Positions 1,695-9,218 of a DNA stretch of 10,000 nucleotides are shown one piece after another. This DNA comes from Kiritimatiellota bacterium. Its GTDB lineage: Bacteria; Verrucomicrobiota; Kiritimatiellia; JAAZAB01. The notes under the pieces are model-generated. The model was not told where the DNA came from and did no database searches. It worked only from the letters and a program-made list of their open reading frames with translations. Where the stretch lies: NCBI GenBank assembly GCA_008636095.1, contig VSJD01000133.1, positions 1 through 10,000 of the forward strand. The letters are read 5' to 3'. Position numbers and translations under genes: made by a program. Within the stretch, counting starts at the first letter, position 1. Every line of letters starts with the position of its first letter.

Positions 1695-2054
1695 GTGCAT
1701 GAATTCTCGATAGCCCAAACGATTGTGCAGGCCGTGCTGGCGGAATTGAAAAAAGTTCAGCCCTCTCGCCTGGTCCGCGCGCGGATTGTGGCCGGAGGCC
1801 TGCATCAGCTCGTGAGCGCCAATCTGACCTTTGCCTACAAGGTGTTGACCAAAGAAACGCCGGCGGCGGGGTCGCGCTTGAGCATCCGCCGTGTGCCGAT
1901 CACGGCCGAATGCCGCCAGTGTCATTGGCGCGGCAAAATCCGGGGCGCTCTGTTTGTCTGCGGCCGGTGCAAGGCCGGTGACATCGAGATTACCGGTGGC
2001 AGGGAACTGTACCTGGACAGTATCGAGGTGGAATCAGCATCCTTGCGGGATTGA
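1695..2054 (+). CDS. hypA: HypA nickel metallochaperone for hydrogenase maturation
   Basis: Cytoplasmic 119-residue protein that binds Ni(II) and, with the GTPase HypB, delivers it to the large subunit of [NiFe] hydrogenase (in some bacteria also to urease). Length matches the family. The GTG start at 1695 is fixed by the invariant N-terminal M-H-E, where His2 and the amino terminus bind nickel. The structural zinc site is two CxxC pairs, C73/C76 (ECRQCHW) and C89/C92 (VCGRCKAG). The C-terminal ELYLDSIEVE is typical. The start region is duplicated: GTGCATGAATC at 1684 precedes GTGCATGAATT at 1695, and only the second is in frame. Shine-Dalgarno is weak. The VanX-like gene follows after 3 bp. 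hypB is not next to it but about 6 kb downstream. Confidence 0.95.
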   Translation: MHEFSIAQTIVQAVLAELKKVQPSRLVRARIVAGGLHQLVSANLTFAYKVLTKETPAAGSRLSIRRVPITAECRQCHWRGKIRGALFVCGRCKAGDIEITGGRELYLDSIEVESASLRD

Positions 2055-2057
2055 CCG

Positions 2058-2672
2058 ATGAAAAGATATGTTTTGACGGTAATGGGAGCGATATTATTCG
2101 CCCTGGCGGGGGTGGCCCGAACCAATCTCCTCGTGGCCGTTACTTCGGTAAACAGCCAGATCCGCCTGGACATCCGCTACGCCACGACCAATAATTTCAC
2201 GGGCCAACAGATTTATCCCGTACCCAAAGCGTATCTGCGTCCCGCGGTCGCTGAAAAACTGTCGCGCGCACAAAACGAACTGATGCAACAGGGTCTGGGA
2301 TTGAAGGTCTTTGATGCGTACCGTCCGCTTACGGTCCAAAAAAAGTTCTGGGCCATTTTACCGGACGAACGCTACGTGGCGAATCCGGCCAAAGGCTCCC
2401 GGCATAACCGCGGCAGTGCGGTAGATATTACGCTGATTCAACTGAATACCGGGGAAGAGCTGCCGATGCCGACCGGCTACGACAATTTCACGGAGAAGGC
2501 GCATTATGCCTATACCAATCTACCGCCGGAGGTTCTGCGCAATCGCACCCTGCTGCGGGATACCATGGTCCGTAACGGCTTCGTCCCGTTCGACACTGAG
2601 TGGTGGCACTTCGACGATGCCGCCTGGCAGACATATGCTCTGCTGGATCTGACAATCGAGAGCCTCCCATGA
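2058..2672 (+). CDS. Exported D-alanyl-D-alanine dipeptidase (VanX/DdpX type, peptidase M15D)
   Basis: Zinc dipeptidase of 204 residues that should cleave free D-Ala-D-Ala, or a related D,D- or L,D-dipeptide, during peptidoglycan turnover. All family catalytic motifs are present: FDAYRP (R89), SRHNRGSAVDITL with zinc ligands H116 and D123, and EWWH with catalytic base E181 and zinc ligand H184. Residues 1-22 (MKRYVLTVMGAILFALAGVA) look like a signal peptide, placing the enzyme in the periplasm. That fits cell-wall recycling better than VanX-type vancomycin resistance, which is cytoplasmic. No vanH, vanA or vanRS gene is nearby. ATG 2058 lies 3 bp after the hypA stop, so the two are probably co-transcribed, though their roles do not obviously connect. 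Confidence 0.9.
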   Translation: MKRYVLTVMGAILFALAGVARTNLLVAVTSVNSQIRLDIRYATTNNFTGQQIYPVPKAYLRPAVAEKLSRAQNELMQQGLGLKVFDAYRPLTVQKKFWAILPDERYVANPAKGSRHNRGSAVDITLIQLNTGEELPMPTGYDNFTEKAHYAYTNLPPEVLRNRTLLRDTMVRNGFVPFDTEWWHFDDAAWQTYALLDLTIESLP

Positions 2673-2794: not shown

Positions 2795-2888
2795 ACAAAC
2801 ATCTGGTGGATTTTTTACGGTTGATATAATACGGTGAATGTTACAGTGCAGCAAGTGTTATGTTCAAAACAAAGCGCAAGGAGATACC

Positions 2889-5147
2889 ATGAAAACTGCC
2901 ATCGGATTATTATTGTCCCTCATTATTACGGGATCGGTATTTGCTACAGGCATATCCGTCAATTTTGATGGAGCCAAGGTTGTCTACATTGACCAAAATA
3001 ATGTCCTGAACAAAATAGATGACCACGGAAATGTGTCGTTCGTATTGAGCACGAATGTAGGCGTCTCTTACATTCATTTCAGCGAGCAGGGCAACCTGTT
3101 TGTGGTGTTCCAGTCAAAACAACGCTTCAGCGACGGATATGATTATCTGCTAGCCAGAGCAGTGCCAACCAATAATACGATTTCAGGAATTGATACGAAC
3201 TTATCGTCTATCACATTGGATTCAAGTGGCTTGTGCCCTGGGGTCCAATCGGATTCATCAGAAAATTTATATTATCTTGCTGGTAACGGGATACTTAACA
3301 AATGCGTGGGTGCCAACGGAACGAATATTGTTAATTTGATTAATGATAACATTTCTATAGACGAATGGTTGGTGCGGTCAGACGGCATAATTCTTATGGG
3401 AGGATCTACGGCATCAACAGATGTCAATTGGCTGAGAAAACTGACACCGGATAATAATCTGTCGTCATTGGCAGTTGGTGCTTCTGTGCAATTCTTGCTG
3501 GATTTCCCTGACGATCGTGTTTACGCCGGGATATGGGGCAGTACCCCGTATTATGGTGTTTTTAAACTGCCGGTTGCCTTGACTACTATTGATGCTTATA
3601 CACCTTATATTGCTGGAAACATGGGGGTAGGCGCTACCCCCGAATATGCGGTCGATTCAATGACAAATGGGCATAATTCAACATATACGGAGGGATTACG
3701 TGGTTGGTTCGGATCAATAATCGAAAAATGTATTAAAACAGATAATGGACGAACGATAGTGTTGGCAGGTTCTGGCAGTAGCAAAACCGTTGTTCAATAC
3801 TATCCGACACCAGAAATCATCGAACCCACTCTTATTGATAGTCCCACATTAATTGAAAAAATATCGAACCTTTTGCTGATTGCTGGCACAAAAAACGGTG
3901 TGAATAAACTGATTTTATATGATCCAGCAACATCTAATGACATCAGTCTCTTAAATGAGGATATTGAAGTTTATCACCTGACATCGCTCTATGATGGTTA
4001 TGTATGGCTGGATGGCTTGAAATTCAACGGCAATCAGTATGTGGTCGGTAAGATTCAAATCACAAACAGCCCGGCGTTACGTGGAGCATTACATGGGGCG
4101 GCTACATCAGTTGGATCATTTCAGGAAATGGCAACGCTGTCGGGTAAACCTGCTGACTTGGTGGGTGTTGTCGCATGTCCAATACTGGCACCGACCAGCG
4201 TGAACGCAAGTGATGGCACATACACGGACAAAGTACGTGTTACTTGGTCAGCAAGTACGGACGCAACCAGTTATCTGATTCTGCGTTACACGAACAGTTC
4301 TTCAGGATTGGCTAGTCAAATTGGAACAAGTACGGCAACCACTTATGACGATACTACGGCCACTCCAGGGACACCTTACTACTACTGGGTCAGGGCAACG
4401 GATGGGTCTAATGTTAGTTCCTTCAGCAGTTCCGATATGGGTTATTGCAGGGCACAAGCACCAAATGACTATGACGGTGACGGCAAGTCCGATTTGGCCG
4501 TGTATCGTGACGGCTATTGGTCCATCTACTTGATGACGGGTAGCGTTCTCCTCGACAACGATGGCGTCTGGGGCGGGGCGGATTGCATTCCGGTGCCCGG
4601 GGACTATGACGGTGATGGCAAGGCCGACCTGGCCTTTTACCGTGACGGCTATTGGTCTATCTACTCGTTGGCGAACGGATTAATCCTCAACAACGGTGGT
4701 GCTTGGGGTGGGGCGGATTGTATCCCAGTGCCAGGGGACTACGATGGCGATGGCAAGTCCGATCTGGCCTTTTACCGTGACGGTTATTGGTCTATCTACT
4801 CGTTGGCGAACGGATTAATCCTCAACAACGGTGGTGCTTGGGGTGGGGCGGATTGTATCCCAGTACCCGGGGATTATGACGGTGACGGCAAGGCCGACTT
4901 GGCCTTTTACCGTGACGGCTATTGGTCTATCTACTCGTTGGCGAACGGATTAATCCTCAACAACGATGGTGTCTATGGCGGGCCAGGCTGGACACCCGTG
5001 TCAGGGGACTACGATGGCGATGGCAAGTCCGATCGGGCCGTGTATCGTGACGGTGATTGGTACATCTACTCGGTGACGGGTAGCCTTATCCGGCATGCCG
5101 TCTGTGGCGGGGCAGGCTGGATCCCGGTGACGGTAAACGTTCAGTAG
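2889..5147 (+). CDS. Secreted protein with FN3 domain and five FG-GAP/VCBS-type calcium-loop repeats
   Basis: Large exported protein, 752 residues, probably cell-surface or extracellular. ATG 2889 is chosen because AAGGAG (2878-2883) lies 5 bases upstream and it opens directly into a signal peptide (MKTAIGLLLSLIITGSVFA); the frame extends to 2838 but without these. Residues about 20-430 are beta-rich, with short NLYYLAGNG- and GVFKLPV-like strands suggestive of a beta-propeller, but I do not recognise the family. Residues about 434-520 form a fibronectin type III domain (APTSVNAS...VRVTWSAS...YYYWVRATDGS). From residue 527 come five tandem 45-residue repeats starting DYDGDGKxDLAxYRDG, each with a DxDGDG calcium-binding loop. 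There is no obvious sorting domain or enzyme domain, so an adhesive or scaffold role is an inference. The N-terminal part is A+T-rich (22 G+C of 60 bases in 3241-3300); the repeats are much G+C-richer. Confidence 0.75.
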   Translation: MKTAIGLLLSLIITGSVFATGISVNFDGAKVVYIDQNNVLNKIDDHGNVSFVLSTNVGVSYIHFSEQGNLFVVFQSKQRFSDGYDYLLARAVPTNNTISGIDTNLSSITLDSSGLCPGVQSDSSENLYYLAGNGILNKCVGANGTNIVNLINDNISIDEWLVRSDGIILMGGSTASTDVNWLRKLTPDNNLSSLAVGASVQFLLDFPDDRVYAGIWGSTPYYGVFKLPVALTTIDAYTPYIAGNMGVGATPEYAVDSMTNGHNSTYTEGLRGWFGSIIEKCIKTDNGRTIVLAGSGSSKTVVQYYPTPEIIEPTLIDSPTLIEKISNLLLIAGTKNGVNKLILYDPATSNDISLLNEDIEVYHLTSLYDGYVWLDGLKFNGNQYVVGKIQITNSPALRGALHGAATSVGSFQEMATLSGKPADLVGVVACPILAPTSVNASDGTYTDKVRVTWSASTDATSYLILRYTNSSSGLASQIGTSTATTYDDTTATPGTPYYYWVRATDGSNVSSFSSSDMGYCRAQAPNDYDGDGKSDLAVYRDGYWSIYLMTGSVLLDNDGVWGGADCIPVPGDYDGDGKADLAFYRDGYWSIYSLANGLILNNGGAWGGADCIPVPGDYDGDGKSDLAFYRDGYWSIYSLANGLILNNGGAWGGADCIPVPGDYDGDGKADLAFYRDGYWSIYSLANGLILNNDGVYGGPGWTPVSGDYDGDGKSDRAVYRDGDWYIYSVTGSLIRHAVCGGAGWIPVTVNVQ
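4467..5141 (+). repeat. Five tandem 135-bp units encoding calcium-loop repeats
   Basis: Units start at 4467, 4602, 4737, 4872 and 5007, each exactly 45 codons. Units 2 and 3 share an uninterrupted run of about 80 identical bases (from the TAT TGG codons onward) and differ at 8 of 135 positions overall. Unit 4 shares its middle with them. Units 1 and 5 are more divergent. This indicates recent unit duplication or conversion. Confidence 0.9.
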
Positions 5148-5234: not shown

Positions 5235-5417
5235 ATGGATTATAGTAACAGCATGAATGAAATAGTTTTTGAGGTTATACAGGAAGCAGACGGCGGCTTC
5301 GTGGCCGAATGTCTGACCGAGAGTATTTTCACTCAGGCCGATTCATGGGACGAGTTGCGTCGGAATGTGAAAGAGGCGGCGGGAGCATACTTTTTCGACA
5401 AAGTTCAACCACAATAG
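5235..5417 (+). CDS. Small HicB/UPF0150-like protein, probably frameshifted near its C-terminus
   Basis: Sixty-residue protein resembling the short HicB-like partial-RNase-H-fold family found in many toxin-antitoxin loci. The pattern is EIVFEVIQEADGGFVAECLTESIFTQADSWDELRRNVKEA. Family members usually continue for a further strand of the type xIRLHxVRDE, but here the frame ends at DKVQPQ. The missing strand is visible in the -1 frame starting at about 5411 (TTIVTLYHILMNE), as expected from loss of one base. The product may therefore be truncated, or the locus decaying. The start could be ATG 5235 (weak GGGTGA upstream) or ATG 5253 (MNEIVF), which fits family length better. No HicA partner is adjacent. 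Family match moderate; function inferred. Confidence 0.6.
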   Translation: MDYSNSMNEIVFEVIQEADGGFVAECLTESIFTQADSWDELRRNVKEAAGAYFFDKVQPQ

Positions 5418-5437
5418 TTACGCTGTATCATATTCTC

Positions 5438-5686
5438 ATGAATGAATACGGATTTACGGATTATTTCGAAAACGAGGTTTTGCGGAAACGCCCGTATCTC
5501 AGGAAGGATTGGTGTATTCGGGTCGTTGAGAACCCTTTAAAAACAGAGCCGCAGGAACACAATCGGTTCCGCTTCTGGGGTTCGGTTGATGAACTTGAAG
5601 GACGCATTCTGCGCGTGATAACGCTTGCGGATAAAAAAACGATACACAACGCTTTTCCAGACAGGAGATTCAAACCATGCGACTAA
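5438..5686 (+). CDS. Small basic protein, possible toxin of a TA-like locus (DUF4258-like)
   Basis: Eighty-two residues from ATG 5438 (MNEYGFTDYF). It is rich in Arg and Lys, with a conserved-looking core of RKDWCIRVVENP, HNRFRFWG and LRVITLADKKTIHNAFPDRRFK. This alternation of basic strands ending in a T-x-x-x-A-F/Y motif resembles small RelE/BrnT/DUF4258-type proteins, many of which are toxins paired with DUF2283-type partners. That likeness is from pattern alone. There is no clear Shine-Dalgarno, and translation may depend on the upstream small gene, whose stop lies 20 bases before. Its last 10 bases overlap the start of the DUF2283 gene, a tight arrangement typical of paired genes. Confidence 0.55.
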   Translation: MNEYGFTDYFENEVLRKRPYLRKDWCIRVVENPLKTEPQEHNRFRFWGSVDELEGRILRVITLADKKTIHNAFPDRRFKPCD

Positions 5687-5895
5687 AATATTATCGAGAC
5701 ACAGATTCCCTTTACATAGACTTCTCTTCAAAACCAAGCGCTGAAAGCCGGGAGATTTCCGAAGGCATCATGTTGGATTATGATACCGACGGGAATCTCG
5801 TCGGAATTGACATTGACAATGCCAGCCGGAAGATTGATTTGAAAGAGGTAATTTTGAGCAAGCTTCCTGCTGAAGTCGAAGCATTGATAGCCTGA
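5677..5895 (+). CDS. DUF2283 family small protein, possible antitoxin partner
   Basis: Seventy-two-residue acidic protein matching the DUF2283 pattern along its length: MRLKYYRDTDSLYIDFS at the start, then EISEGIMLDYDTDGNLVGIDIDNAS. Length is normal for the family. AGGAG (5663-5667) lies 9 bases before the ATG, and the start overlaps the preceding gene by 10 bases, so the two are translationally linked. DUF2283 proteins are often encoded next to small basic DUF4258- or RelE-like proteins, which suggests an antitoxin role; this is inference from context. Confidence 0.8.
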   Translation: MRLKYYRDTDSLYIDFSSKPSAESREISEGIMLDYDTDGNLVGIDIDNASRKIDLKEVILSKLPAEVEALIA

Positions 5896-5995: not shown

Positions 5996-6067
5996 CGCAA
6001 GGCCTGTGACATCGAAATTACGGGTGAAAGAACCATATCCAACCAATCCTTAAAAATTGAATCCACC
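5996..6067 (+). pseudogene. Decayed 3' end of a second hypA copy
   Basis: Codons from 5999 read KACDIEITGERTISNQSLKIES, aligning without gaps to HypA residues 93-114 (KAGDIEITGGRELYLDSIEVES). At the DNA level the first 33 bases match hypA 1971-2003 at 27 positions; the remainder is much more diverged (38 of 66 overall). Two stop codons (TAATAA, 5984-5989) lie upstream in this frame, so it is not expressed as HypA. It runs directly into a hypB-like start and its frame closes inside it at 6086-6088. This preserves an overlapping hypA-hypB operon junction that the intact genes no longer have. Confidence 0.7.
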
Positions 6068-6068
6068 C

Positions 6069-6324
6069 ATGCCCAAGCTGAACATTAAAATCTATCGGAA
6101 CCTGATGGGCGCCACGGCAGTAGAGTTCCGCAAGTCGAAACACACTGCGTGGCTGTCCTGAAGCACTGCCCTGTAGCGTGCTGACTAAAAGGAGGCGCTG
6201 CTACAGGGTGCGCCGAGTCGGCGAGGCTCTACTTTAGGGCGCCAACGATAAGTGGGCGGAGCGCACGCGCGCCCTGCTGAAAAAGCACCATGTGATCATG
6301 CTCAACCTGATCGGCGCGCCTTAA
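6069..6324 (+). pseudogene. Truncated second hypB copy (first 40 codons) interrupted by a small element
   Basis: 6069-6114 plus 6245-6315 match the first 117 bases of intact hypB (8065-8181) with about 11 differences, roughly 90 percent identity. The joined product would read MPKLNIKIYRNLMGAN, DKWAERTRALLKKH, HVIMLNLIG, against MTKLNIKIYRNLMGAN, DRWAARTRALLKKH, RVIMLNLIG in HypB. Homology ends at the first Gly-Ser/Ala-Pro of the Walker A motif, where TAA follows (6322-6324), so the GTPase domain is absent. A 122-bp insertion plus its 8-bp duplication also breaks the frame. The beta-helix gene begins 15 bases after the breakpoint. Confidence 0.88.
6115..6236. mobile_element. 122-bp palindromic miniature element with 8-bp target duplication
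   Basis: The element interrupts the hypB remnant and is flanked by exact copies of GGGCGCCA (6107-6114 and 6237-6244). Intact hypB has one corresponding GGGTGCCA at 8103-8110, so removing the element and one copy restores the alignment. Near its ends are AGTAGAG (6119-6125) and CTCTACT (6227-6233), extending imperfectly to GTAGAGTTCCGC against GTAGAGCCTCGC. Inside are CCCTGTAGC (6169-6177) pairing with GCTACAGGG (6200-6208), and the near-perfect palindrome CGCCGAGTCGGCG (6211-6223). It has no coding capacity, so it would be a non-autonomous MITE- or REP-like element moved by a transposase encoded elsewhere. The parent family is unknown. Confidence 0.82.
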
Positions 6325-6339
6325 CCTCTTGGAGTCAAT

Positions 6340-7830
6340 ATGAATAAACTCGTTTTCTCTTTCCTTGCTGCCCTCCCTTGCATCCTGTCTGCAAGCACAC
6401 TGGCAAGGCCCCTTAGCGTGTTCAACTTTATGACCGTGACGCAAATCGCCCAGGTGCAAAACGGCACATCAACTGATGACACGCATCAGGTCCAAGCCGC
6501 ACTTAATGCCCTTCAAGCCGGCAGCCCAGGATCGCTATATTTCCCTGCGGGAACTTATAAAGTAAAGACTACGTTGTTTACTTCGGGGGTTTTGTCTTGT
6601 CGTATTTTTGGCGAAACGGGTTTCGATGGAGCAGAATCGGTCATGAACGGTGGTACTAAAACTATTATAAAATGGATAGGTCCAAGCGATCCTAGTTCCC
6701 CGGTTGTCAGACACACCCGTGCCAATGGCATGGTTTGGAGCGGGATTAGCATCGACTGCAATCACCTTGCGGGCTACGGCATTCAATTTGATTCCGACTT
6801 GCAGACGGCAGGTGCTGTAAGGAATGTCATCGAACTCTGTTCTGTCAATTATGCCCAAAGAGATGGCATCCTCATCGGATCAGAAGGTAGCCCTTCCGCC
6901 AATCCCGGGGATCGCCAATTCTTTGCATACACGGTACGTCAGGTGGTTGTACGCGGCTGCCAGCGCTCGGGAATCCACGTGAACGAATGGAATGCTGACG
7001 CCCACGTTTACGACCAGGTGTGGGGGTTCCCGGACGACACAAAAACCTGGAATTGCGCCAATGTTTTTTGGTTCGAGCGTGGAGGCAATGCCAGTGAGCT
7101 TAGGTCTTGCGAGTCCTCGGCAACCGTGGCGTCCGCGATAGAAGGTAGTGGTTTTATGATTAAGAATGGTTCGAGCGAGAAGAATACGGGATGCCAGGGT
7201 CTATCCGTGATTAACGCATGGTCTGAAGATCCCGGTGGGTTTTTCTGGGCAAATACCATTGGAGACATAAAAAACCCATACACATTTATCAACTGCAAGG
7301 CATACGGATATGGCACCGGAACGAAAGGCCTGTCTGTGTACGTTACGCTTAAAGGCGGGAAGCCGGCTTCCTTCACCTTTATGGGTTGCCATTTCAATTC
7401 AAATGTGAAATTCGATACGCCCAATATCACAAGCTCTTTTTTCGCTGATATCGGCAATTATTGGGGACCTACGGCCGGGGTCATCGACTGTCGCGGCGCA
7501 AAAACAATTAAACGATTTGCCAATTTAGGAAATGTAAATACCGTTGGAAAAGCTTTGGTCCCTCCTCGATTTGCAAATGTCATCATGATGACTCTCGCTG
7601 CCAACCTTCCTGCAATATACATGGAAGGGATGGATGACGTCTCAACGCCTGTGACACTAATAGTGAAGCAAGATGCGCTTGGGGATCGGACGATAGTGTT
7701 TGGCGCCGACCAGTGGGCTGACGCAAGTTCCATACCTCAACCAGCTCCAACCGCGAACGCCGTTACAATCTATGTTTTCACATCGGATGGAAATTATTGG
7801 CATCTTGTGAGTGTTAGAAGCAACCAATAG
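6340..7830 (+). CDS. Secreted pectate-lyase-superfamily right-handed beta-helix protein
   Basis: Exported 496-residue protein. ATG 6340 is supported by GGAG (6331-6334) 5 bases upstream and a signal peptide (MNKLVFSFLAALPCILSASTLA). Residues about 42-80 carry the Pectate_lyase_3 / glycoside hydrolase 55-like opening: GTSTDDTHQVQAALNAL then GSLYFPAGTYKVKTTL. The following roughly 300 residues are short beta-strand turns with GISIDCNHLAGYGIQFDS- and GILIGS-type rungs, expected of a parallel beta-helix. Residues about 410-496 (TLIVKQDALGDRTIVFGADQW, NAVTIYVFTSDGNYW) resemble the C-terminal module of phage tail and tailspike proteins. It probably binds or cleaves a polysaccharide; no catalytic residues can be assigned. 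It stands alone between the hypB remnant and intact hypB. Confidence 0.8.
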   Translation: MNKLVFSFLAALPCILSASTLARPLSVFNFMTVTQIAQVQNGTSTDDTHQVQAALNALQAGSPGSLYFPAGTYKVKTTLFTSGVLSCRIFGETGFDGAESVMNGGTKTIIKWIGPSDPSSPVVRHTRANGMVWSGISIDCNHLAGYGIQFDSDLQTAGAVRNVIELCSVNYAQRDGILIGSEGSPSANPGDRQFFAYTVRQVVVRGCQRSGIHVNEWNADAHVYDQVWGFPDDTKTWNCANVFWFERGGNASELRSCESSATVASAIEGSGFMIKNGSSEKNTGCQGLSVINAWSEDPGGFFWANTIGDIKNPYTFINCKAYGYGTGTKGLSVYVTLKGGKPASFTFMGCHFNSNVKFDTPNITSSFFADIGNYWGPTAGVIDCRGAKTIKRFANLGNVNTVGKALVPPRFANVIMMTLAANLPAIYMEGMDDVSTPVTLIVKQDALGDRTIVFGADQWADASSIPQPAPTANAVTIYVFTSDGNYWHLVSVRSNQ

Positions 7831-7971
7831 ATATGGTGGTGCTTCATCCAGGTTCTTTCTTCACCAAAACCATACCGACAGTGATCGCGCGACTATAAAC
7901 GCTTTCCTATCCGGCCTAACCGTTCGTTCCACTCAGACACTACCGGCACTGGCCGAAACTCAAACCATGGC

Positions 7972-7999
7972 TTGATAATGGGAGCCAAGGGGATATGAT
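7972..7999 (+). promoter_or_regulatory. Candidate sigma70-type promoter for hypB
   Basis: TTGATA (7972-7977) and TATGAT (7994-7999) are 16 bp apart, each matching consensus at five of six positions. Initiation would give a leader of about 58 bases containing the CTGAACA array. It suggests hypB has its own transcription after separation from hypA. Confidence 0.45.
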
Positions 8000-8029
8000 G
8001 ACGCGTTAATGGGTGCAATTACCGGCGAG

Positions 8030-8050
8030 CTGAACACTGAACACTGAACA
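8030..8050. repeat. CTGAACA x 3 tandem repeat
   Basis: Three exact copies of the 7-mer CTGAACA at 8030, 8037 and 8044, in the hypB leader 15 bases before the start codon. The word recurs within hypB at 8074-8080 (AAG CTG AAC ATT), which may be coincidence. Confidence 0.85.
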
Positions 8051-8064
8051 CCCGAGTAATTACG

Positions 8065-8760
8065 ATGACCAAGCTGAACATTAAAATCTACCGAAACCTG
8101 ATGGGTGCCAACGATCGGTGGGCAGCCCGCACGCGCGCCCTGCTGAAAAAGCACCGGGTGATCATGCTCAACCTGATCGGCTCCCCGGGCGCGGGAAAAA
8201 CCAGCCTGCTGGAAAAAACCGTGCGCTCGCTCTCCAAAACATGCCGGTTTGCCGTGCTGGAGGGCGACGTCGAAACCACGCATGATGCCGAGCGCTTAGC
8301 CCGGCTGGGCTGTCGGGTCAGCCAGTTGCTGACTGGCGGGGCCTGTCACCTGGAGGCTAAGTTGGTGCATTATGCACTCCGCGATCTGCCGCTCAATAAA
8401 CTTGACCTGGTAGTGGTTGAAAATGTCGGCAACCTGGTTTGTCCTGCAGAATTTGATATCGGCGAGCATGCCAAGGTGGCGATCTTAAGCGTTACGGAGG
8501 GCGAAGATAAACCCGTAAAATATCCAACGCTCTTCCGGGAGGCCAAGGCCGTGGCGCTGACTAAAATGGATTTACTTCCGCACCTGCCGTTCGATCTCAA
8601 GGTCTGTCGGGCTTACCTGCGCCAAATCAATGCCACCACGCCCGTATTCCAGGTTTCGGCTCAAACCGGCCGGGGAATGGCCGCTTGGATCAAGTGGCTT
8701 CGGGAAATGCATGCTGAAAGCCAGACGCCGGACGCCAGACACCGGACACCAGAAAGATAA
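8065..8760 (+). CDS. hypB: HypB GTPase for nickel insertion into hydrogenase
   Basis: Cytoplasmic SIMIBI-class GTPase, 231 residues, that works with HypA to load nickel into [NiFe] hydrogenase. Visible motifs: Walker A GSPGAGKT (39-46), EGDVETTHDAERL (67-79), the metal-binding GACHLEA (C94, H95), ENVGNLVCPAEFD (C126), the guanine-specificity motif as TKMD (166-169), and SAQTGRGM (198-205). The N-terminal Cys-rich nickel motif of E. coli HypB and any His-rich stretch are absent, as in many HypB proteins. The last 15 residues (ESQTPDARHRTPER) are not family sequence but the translation of a word array at 8721-8752. ATG 8065 is fixed by homology; the Shine-Dalgarno is weak. A truncated copy of the first 39 codons lies 2 kb upstream. 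Confidence 0.95.
   Translation: MTKLNIKIYRNLMGANDRWAARTRALLKKHRVIMLNLIGSPGAGKTSLLEKTVRSLSKTCRFAVLEGDVETTHDAERLARLGCRVSQLLTGGACHLEAKLVHYALRDLPLNKLDLVVVENVGNLVCPAEFDIGEHAKVAILSVTEGEDKPVKYPTLFREAKAVALTKMDLLPHLPFDLKVCRAYLRQINATTPVFQVSAQTGRGMAAWIKWLREMHAESQTPDARHRTPER
8721..8752. repeat. CCAGACGCC word array at the 3' end of hypB
   Basis: Tandem words CCAGACGCC, GGACG, CCAGACACC, GGACACCAG, read as SQTPDARHRTP in the hypB frame. It is the reverse complement of the TCTGGCG family at 189-220 and faces the opposite-orientation array at 8778-8830. Confidence 0.8.
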
Positions 8761-8777
8761 GAGATCGTTGTTCAGTT

Positions 8778-8830
8778 GTCCGTCAGGTGTCAGGCGTCTG
8801 GTGTCTGGCTTCCGTCATCCGGCGTCTGGC
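8778..8830. repeat. TCTGGCGTC word array at the 3' end of the cupin gene
   Basis: Words GTCAGGTGTCAGG, CGTCTGGTGTCTGGC, then CGTCATCCGGCGTCTGGC. On the minus strand it encodes the cupin tail (ESQTPDDGSQTPDA). Together with 8721-8752 it forms a long imperfect inverted repeat, loop about 25 bases, between two convergent genes, so it may act as a bidirectional terminator. Confidence 0.8.
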
Positions 8831-9218
8831 TTTCCGCGTCCCGGTGCACAATATCCGGCCCGAAAGCCGGCAGGCACACGGCCATGTATTCTGCGCCCTC
8901 TGGCGCCGGTGTGCTGTATTGAACCCATTCGCCCCGCCGCACAATCACGGCCTGGCCGGCCTTGACATCAATGGCGCCGGCGTGCGTCTTGACCCGCAGA
9001 TGGCCTTTAAAGACGACCGAGTATTCGTCGAACTCCGGTGTCTGGCCCGGCTCGCTCCAGCCGCCGGGACTGCGCATGCGGGCGATGCTGACCGCCTCGG
9101 TTTTGGAACTGACCCGGCCGATGAATTCATCAATGACTTTGGGCTTGTTGCCCGCGGCGCGAACGCTGACGGGAGCCTGGATTAATGTGGCTGGCATAGT
9201 TTGGCTTGAACCCTCCAT
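8790..9218 (-). CDS. Small single-domain cupin protein
   Basis: 142-residue cytoplasmic protein with a cupin beta-barrel pattern at residues about 48-118: MRSPGGWSEPGQTPEFDEYSVVFKG, then an AGQAVIVRRGEWVQY strand pair and GAEYMAVCLPAF. The first motif lacks the HxH pair of classical metal cupins; E62, D64 and E65 may substitute or the site may be degenerate. Ligand and role unknown; similar small cupins are often sugar- or metabolite-binding. Residues 127-142 are translated from the word array at 8778-8830. The start is either ATG 9218, without a Shine-Dalgarno, or ATG 9197 (MPATLIQAPV), which has GGAGGG about 13 bases upstream and may be the real one. It converges on hypB. Confidence 0.75.
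   Translation of the reverse strand: MEGSSQTMPATLIQAPVSVRAAGNKPKVIDEFIGRVSSKTEAVSIARMRSPGGWSEPGQTPEFDEYSVVFKGHLRVKTHAGAIDVKAGQAVIVRRGEWVQYSTPAPEGAEYMAVCLPAFGPDIVHRDAESQTPDDGSQTPDA

Follow-up and report, generated by a model that had tools for sequence, protein, structure and literature searches.

The hypA and hypB genes lie 6 kb apart in the window (the whole 10,000-nucleotide stretch of DNA that was analysed), as the initial annotation had claimed on inspection. Profile matches to PF01155, PF02492 (78 bits on intact hypB) and TIGR00073 bear this out; the match of intact hypA to TIGR00100 reached 72.6 bits, below the cut-off of 88.1. Between the two genes lie several cargo genes and R, a contiguous copy of the 3' end of hypA and the 5' end of hypB (5997-6320). 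The features are:

1695..2054, + strand: intact hypA, GTG start (PF01155, 88.4 bits)
2058..2672, + strand: cargo 1a, M15 D-Ala-D-Ala dipeptidase-like (PF01427, 120 bits)
2838..5147, + strand: cargo 1b, fn3/FG-GAP repeat protein (PF13517)
5235..5895, + strand: cargo 1c, three small ORFs: HicB-like (by eye), unnamed, DUF2283
5997..6068, + strand: left part of R, hypA 3' copy (KACDIEITGERTISNQSLKIES; repeat search, copy comparison)
6069..6114, + strand: middle part of R, hypB 5' copy as far as the inserted repeat (repeat search)
6115..6236, + strand: 122-bp dispersed repeat inside R (copies on other contigs, 8-bp duplication)
6237..6320, + strand: right part of R, hypB 5' copy as far as the Walker A codons (repeat search)
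6340..7830, + strand: cargo 2, beta-helix protein of 496 aa (PF12708, 22.5 bits, below the cut-off of 27)
8065..8760, + strand: intact hypB, starting MTKLNIK (TIGR00073, 257 bits, cut-off 121)

The matches of R to hypA (90% at 5997-6026) and hypB (91% at 6069-6114 and 89.9%, E 4e-25, at 6237-6315) in the repeat search are far above chance. The junction copy first placed at 5996-6324 is therefore real, but it is broken by a dispersed repeat rather than contiguous in its present form. The hypB part was correctly described as highly similar to the intact gene, although the figure of 106 of 117 bases becomes 90.9% over 110 bp when the insert is excluded; over the same 110 bp only, identity to the first R copy of the related genome G002 is 95.5%. 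It does end at the Walker A codons, but about 20 bp before the ATG of the beta-helix gene and not 15. The hypA part is an odd variant, and decay alone is insufficient to account for it since its peptide ISNQSLKIE recurs in the metagenome fragment P0015, where it is joined to yet another tail. Dating of the two halves of R was attempted, and sites conflict among the six R/hypB copies of 110 bp. No hypA 3' copy is present in the sequence upstream of intact hypB.

The 122-bp repeat has copies on contigs C55 and C132 and a partial copy on C272, and in R it is flanked by an 8-bp target duplication, GGGCGCCA (6107-6114 and 6237-6244). It occupies the identical insertion point in the metagenome fragments P0022 (13/13 and 12/12 residues matching the window at the two ends of the repeat) and P0023 (11/14 residues at one end). 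This tagged R is followed by three different right-hand sequences in the window, P0022 and P0023; the one in P0023, directly 3' of R, is closely related to the first ORF of cargo 1c.

The cargo consists of separate ORFs, and those with matches belong to unrelated families and are not alternative C-termini of HypB. All ten main cargo ORFs from three species (hand-picked) are co-oriented with hypAB. The third ORF of cargo 1c matched PF10049 (67 bits) and the first two matched no family in the Pfam scan; parts of cargo 1c occur elsewhere in the class. The beta-helix protein has four relatives in protein sets (70-84% identity) and none in 331 other genomes of the class at E 1e-20. Judged by eye from their starts, the proteins encoded by cargo 1b and cargo 2 are secreted. 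The 135-bp repeats of cargo 1b have widespread copies across the genome (repeat search and DNA matches). Templated insertion from the bacterium's own genome was rejected: with 40 of 92 first-look candidates scored, no DNA copy of the beta-helix, M15 or small-ORF cargo was found, and only the FG-GAP repeats had own-genome copies (47 of 56 matches).

The hypA-hypB junction in related genomes

Four members of the genus were found to carry hypAB, three with differing cargo at the junction and one uninterrupted. An intact operon in a relative and the same junction with other cargo had both been proposed as checks, and both were found. The G004 operon is uninterrupted and represents an empty site. 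G002 has the junction as a direct repeat (182 bp at 94.5%) on either side of 1713 bp containing a radical-SAM gene. G003 carries other cargo and remnants of R only (19/20 bp at L037 9019-9000 and 17 bp at L037 8519-8503). Thus two genomes have R copies beside cargo and the third has short remnants, and intact hypB lies downstream of the cargo in all three. A mis-assembled chimera, raised by the initial annotation as a refutation, is unlikely since two other, differently named assemblies hold junction cargo and the short HypB fragments described below were drawn from several sources. The divergence between R copies is 5.5% in G002 and 9% in the window, so recent exchange is not demonstrated.

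The suspected recurrent insertion site is seen within the genus but not in hyp operons generally. Taking the best 80 of the 143 hypB loci in genome_contigs, we found hypA on 62; no more than 300 bp separate the two genes in 60 of these, the exceptions being G002 and G003. A peptide search of 332 genomes of the class, 28 of which gave matches, revealed second copies of the hypB start in G000 and G002 only; it is a better negative than the DNA search for R in 345 class genomes, which scored two candidates per genome.

Splitting of hypAB is unremarkable by itself because gene-size indels are common in the genus: in our reading, about four of > 500 bp separate G004 from G002 in 16 kb, one being the hyp cargo. 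A genus-wide enriched mode of insertion was not supported, as densities of filtered partial duplications equalled those of two control genomes, G019 and G030 (11 pairs at 10 places in 1.326 Mb of the genus; 3 in 0.4 Mb of controls). The filter drops multi-copy and same-ORF pairs (41/55 in the genus, 5/8 in controls), and three pairs at the G000 and G002 hyp loci were left out of the filtered count. Before filtering there were 52 genus pairs (hyp loci excluded) against 8 in controls, about twice as many in the genus. Pairwise comparison of randomly sampled stretches gave too little shared sequence for counting events. Self-repeats resembling the hyp case were also seen elsewhere: the 5' end of a gene (lgt by eye) copied before cargo at L192 (G000:C18; 819-894/3448-3523), a promoter and gene start (GntR by eye) at L165 (G004:C12; 17381-17463/18732-18813), an upstream repeat at L188 (G000:C14) and the end of a gene (AraC by eye) on G003:C2.

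Short HypB fragments with a common break point

Public protein sets contain 27 genus-like short HypB fragments, known as protein sequences and assumed to lie at hypAB, and 24 of them leave HypB at residues 41-44 or equivalent (Walker A). Each tail was checked against the six reading frames of native hypB. P0012 (KTRLL) and P0007 (RTCR, 6/12), which may be rearranged native hypB, and P0033, whose three-residue tail is too short for comparison, were set aside, leaving 21 whose tails are unlike any native frame (≤ 5/12 residues alike; 4 of 7-9 for short tails). A frameshift or homopolymer artefact was rejected as the cause of the common truncation, as most tails resemble no frame of native hypB; in P0009, an ordinary hypB has clearly been frameshifted. 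The break falls some six residues earlier in P0034 and P0035, which have a tail in common, and five weaker matches to less related HypB (P0036-P0040) were left out of the table.

The third tail residue is I or M in 8 of 13 non-redundant tails (0 of 20000 shuffles reach 8), or in 10 of 15 if P0007 and P0012 are kept, which points to a common origin for many joints; the query of the first fragment search included the G002 tail and may favour similar tails. The near-fixed break point, the many tails and the recurrent hypA' variant favour recombination over a single tandem duplication, as initially proposed.

Possible origins of the proposed cargo slot

The observation is real, and the arrangement is probably undescribed, though of a known kind. 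We give a probability of about one half to the reading that in this genus the hypA-hypB junction serves as a slot for cargo, holding an array of swappable cargo with R copies as homology arms. R, comprising the hypA 3' end and the first ~41 codons of hypB, would serve as such an arm: recombination between two R copies would release a circle of cargo with one R, or delete the cargo and restore hypAB. A circle, or a transformed fragment with one R, could then enter the hypAB of another strain by a single crossover, giving hypA-hypB', cargo and intact hypB downstream. Repeated insertion would build arrays, loss of R copies would lead to the present state of the window, and cargo expression would come from the hyp operon. 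With R copies 5.5-9% apart, exchange by RecA should be slowed. Homologous recombination relocates joints that already exist; alone it does not create new joints at one point.

Such joints might instead be the work of a trans-acting recombinase that links cassettes to hypB at codon 41. Every cassette would then supply a substitute 5' end for hypB, as with some elements whose integration site is a gene's 5' end. The near-fixed right break, the short extension common to many tails and the intact hypB downstream in three genomes agree with this, as do an integron integrase in G003 (TIGR02249, 475 bits, cut-off 265), on another contig than the hyp locus, and matches to tyrosine recombinases in each of the five genomes of the genus. 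It is nevertheless unlikely: no recombinase was found among the scanned cargo ORFs, and no integrase among those of the window and cargo (in G002 and G003 the flanking genes were listed). Strand folding of the hypB' unit is unremarkable (z about -1), and R was absent from the viral contigs, phages and plasmids searched, so that carriage by phage or plasmid was rejected. A search of the window and of L036, L037 and L038 by strict motif and pairing rules returned no attC-like site, weak evidence because ten recombinase neighbourhoods yielded one candidate (L304 18443) and sensitivity is doubtful. As to a transposon, Pfam revealed no transposase in six cargo ORFs of the window and four from sister genomes, and the repeat search no inverted repeats of at least 20 nt at the ends of the window cargo. 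Quite unlikely, too, is a dedicated cassette system that uses hypAB for attachment, in which a recombinase acting at hypB codon 41 and fresh 5' ends would preserve nickel insertion, and expression from the hyp operon would link capture to hydrogenase maturation.

R could also be made from the host each time, by offset nicks ~180 bp apart, joining of foreign DNA and filling of gaps. The 182-bp direct repeat of G002, with G004 as empty site, fits such a long target duplication exactly. However, tagged R and the odd hypA' recur with different cargo, which argues that R is inherited or travels and is not remade from native hypAB; tagged R could itself have been the target of a new insertion. The G002 R copies, moreover, differ as much as G002 and G004 hypB do beyond the 5' part (4.9%), and this origin is very improbable. 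An ordinary history, with one or two ancestral insertions and partial duplications followed by decay and unrelated gene gains and no ongoing exchange, would suit the old-looking divergence, the common gene-size indels and the equal density of filtered partial duplications in controls. Against it stand 21 non-HypB tails at almost one point, three neighbours for a single tagged R and cargo that differs in all three species, and we regard it as improbable.

If R is a recombination arm, a housekeeping operon can capture genes through the copied start of a gene, no enzyme of a mobile element being required at the locus, and tools that seek integrases, transposases or attC sites would overlook such loci. 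The combination of an almost constant break point and many tails can be turned into a simple rule for searches: look for short pieces from the N-terminus of a conserved protein that stop at one residue and continue into unrelated tails. This rule could reveal further slots in genome and metagenome data.

Comparison with known systems

Integron cassette arrays hold unrelated, co-oriented cargo separated by a repeated sequence. The putative hyp slot resembles them in these respects, and an integron integrase is present in the genus, but its repeat is a hypAB fragment in which no attC hallmark was found, and no integrase was seen at the locus. In rhs genes the joint between core and tip is fixed. 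The passages on rhs C-terminal displacement in Jackson et al. 2009 (PMC2935791) describe conserved core fragments preceding variable units in strings, and propose homologous recombination via circles bearing a core fragment. The likeness is that hypB 5' fragments are joined to variable units at one point (24/27 at residues 41-44). The tips described there are alternative C-termini of one protein, whereas hyp cargoes are separate genes, and the slot gene encodes a nickel-insertion GTPase of which a whole copy is retained downstream.

Immunity-gene arrays of the Vibrio cholerae T6SS are attributed to homology-facilitated illegitimate recombination (PMC5361080). There also, a conserved stretch anchors stepwise insertion and arrays remain, but the anchor is the region upstream of the incoming module, and a truncated gene copy recurring at a single point does not figure in that paper's passages on the arrays. 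Hotspots of gene transfer, where genes turn over rapidly, likewise combine a fixed place with varying cargo (PMC5635113); compared with those outlined there, the hyp slot differs in that it copies the flanking junction itself beside the cargo.

The hypAB locus in the window and its sister genomes

In the window, the MFS transporter, hypA, cargo 1, R, cargo 2 and hypB follow one another on the + strand, cargo being the unrelated genes between hypA and hypB:

between hypA and R, + strand: cargo 1 (M15 peptidase, FG-GAP protein and three small ORFs)
5997-6068, + strand: R, hypA 3' end (hypA')
6069-6114 and 6237-6320, + strand: R, hypB 5' end (hypB')
between R and hypB, + strand: cargo 2 (beta-helix protein)

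The initial annotation had proposed a ghost hypA/hypB junction here, and this is borne out, as R consists of a hypA 3' end joined to a hypB 5' end. A dispersed repeat of 122 bp, bordered by a target duplication of 8 bp, interrupts its hypB part. With this insert omitted, hypB' is 90.9% identical over 110 bp to the intact hypB of its own genome; the upstream copy of G002 (JAHIMN010000113) matches it at 95.5% and G004 (JAPLSY010000028) at 93.6%. The inserted repeat (6115-6236) is low-copy, and the strand at 6109-6236 is well folded (z -2.4). Other repeats of the GTCTGGCGTCTGG type, in direct and inverted copies, lie beside hypB (8713-8837) and near the start of the MFS gene (189-221). The 135-bp repeats of the FG-GAP cargo gene (4467-5141) are an expanded repeat family and account for 47 of the 56 own-genome DNA matches of a 6-kb query.

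Five members of the genus were sampled, including the source genome of the window (G000, contig C168, 10,000 bases; 87% complete), G001 (85%) and G002 (70%). There was no match to hypB in G001, at 85% completeness. In G004 the junction carries no insert and, by our own reading of the sequence, hypA and hypB overlap by a few bases. The order in G002 is hypA, a hypB' that breaks off in Walker A, a gene of the B12-binding radical-SAM kind (PF04055, PF02310), a hypA 3' copy and hypB, the junction being a 182-bp direct repeat (94.5%) flanking 1713 bp. In G003 (JAQUMN010000004), hypA is followed by a hypB remnant (19/20 bp), a 135-aa ORF, a 17-bp hypB-start remnant, a GT25 gene (PF01755), a further gene with a sub-threshold arginine-deiminase match, and hypB. 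Comparison of these loci thus shows junction cargo, different each time, in three of the four hypAB-bearing genomes. Intact hypB lies downstream of the cargo in all three, and the ten main cargo ORFs, as picked by us, are all co-oriented with hypAB. Both G002 hypB copies (L036 4230-4204 and 2336-2310) lack the ATG used in the sister genomes and read RPKLNIK there; the first ATG to follow comes 12 codons downstream (MGAND).

Outside the genus, hypA and hypB mostly stand together. When the best 80 of the 143 hypB loci were inspected, 62 yielded a hypA, which lay within 300 bp of hypB in 60; the sole exceptions were G002 and G003. Second copies of the hypB start occurred only in G000 and G002 (332 class genomes searched, 28 matched). 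The beta-helix protein has four relatives (70-84% identity) in protein sets (7992 candidates scored) and none at E 1e-20 in the 331 other genomes of the class. Of these 331, 14 have parts of the small-ORF block (two candidates scored per genome). Since NiFe-hydrogenase large-subunit matches were obtained in four of the five genus genomes, hypAB probably has a client; G002, 70% complete, gave no such match.

HypB fragments with a common break point

The truncated HypB of G002, used as query, returned 23 short proteins (admitted size 47-150 aa), and a profile search returned 32, nine of them new (up to 145 aa). Five less related HypB fragments (P0036-P0040) were set aside. HypB is left at residues 41-44 or equivalent in 24 of the 27 kept, and this common break is informative because the sizes admitted and returned should have shown later truncations. 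P0034 and P0035 break off some six residues before this point, and P0009 is an ordinary HypB with a frameshift. The metagenome fragments are assumed to be located at hypAB loci.

For the tails, the sequence right of the break, P0007 and P0012 (possibly rearranged native hypB) and P0033 (tail too short for judgement) were removed, leaving 21 of the 24. I or M stands at the third residue in 8 of 13 non-redundant tails, a number reached in none of 20,000 shuffles. Many joints thus probably share one ancestor; the remaining tails are without the I/M sign. The first query itself bore such a tail and may favour hits with like tails.

The insert marks individual copies of R. P0022 holds MGATAVEFRKSKH and ESARLYFRAPTI, frames of the window's hypB'-insert joints (13/13 and 12/12 residues), and P0023 holds VCRVNEALLQGAND, matching VRRVGEALL*GAND of the window at 11 of 14. 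Likeness to the insert is 9/10 residues in P0022, 7/10 in P0023 and at most 5/10 in the rest of the 27. The P0022 tail is SIRVYKVSSGYI; that of P0023 continues into an ORF closely related to the HicB-like one that stands upstream of R in the window. As these tails and the window's beta-helix differ, one marked R has three right-hand neighbours. In P0015, SISNQSLKIEPN, the window's odd hypA' sequence, directly precedes the hypB start, and the tail is a fourth one, common to P0018. Such recurrence with different tails indicates that copies of R are passed on or move as units, with changing neighbours.

Possible routes of cargo exchange

R or its remnants adjoin changing cargo, and the right end of the fragments is near-fixed. 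By analogy with rhs tips, R may be where cargo is exchanged, through homologous recombination. A site-specific route for joining cargo at hypB is also plausible, given how constant the right end is; G003 has an integron integrase, and the attC search that came up empty at hypAB was a weak one. The integrase (TIGR02249, 475 bits) lies at L304 14692-15294 (G003:C34), and a single attC-like candidate was located at L304 18443; each of the five genus genomes has PF00589 matches.

Once filtered, partial duplications round cargo show equal density in the genus and in controls (10 places in 1.326 Mb versus 3 in 0.4 Mb of two controls, excluding the hyp contigs of G000 and G002; 52 and 8 pairs before filtering), and G004 and G002 differ by frequent gene-size indels. 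Copies of R within a genome are 5-9% apart, so recent movement is not demonstrated, and with 110-120 bp the histories of hypB' and the rest of hypB are inseparable. Architecture resembling the hypB case is seen in G000:C18, where a 76-bp lgt-like 5' end (by eye; 84%) is copied upstream of about 2.5 kb of cargo (L192 819-894 and 3448-3523). A regulator promoter-and-start (83 bp, 95%) is present in two copies, one on either side of a 367-aa gene, in G004:C12 (L165 17381-17463 and 18732-18813). In control G019:C1 (L230), a vapBC-like two-gene block (by eye) is partly duplicated round one gene (156550-156845 and 158030-158325), the same cargo-flanking architecture in another family.

In the open-licence library searched, no paper was found for Kiritimatiell with hypB or with integron/attC. 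The only match for 'truncated hypB' was a paper on HypA-HypB interaction, and among the 15 of 16 papers listed for cassettes, hotspots and direct repeats, no title concerned this hypAB locus.

Homologous recombination at R would have counterparts in known systems. Jackson and colleagues (PMC2935791) proposed that rhs tips exchange by homologous recombination via circles that bear a fragment of the core. The homology-facilitated illegitimate recombination proposed for V. cholerae immunity arrays (PMC5361080) is a scheme related to that suggested for R.
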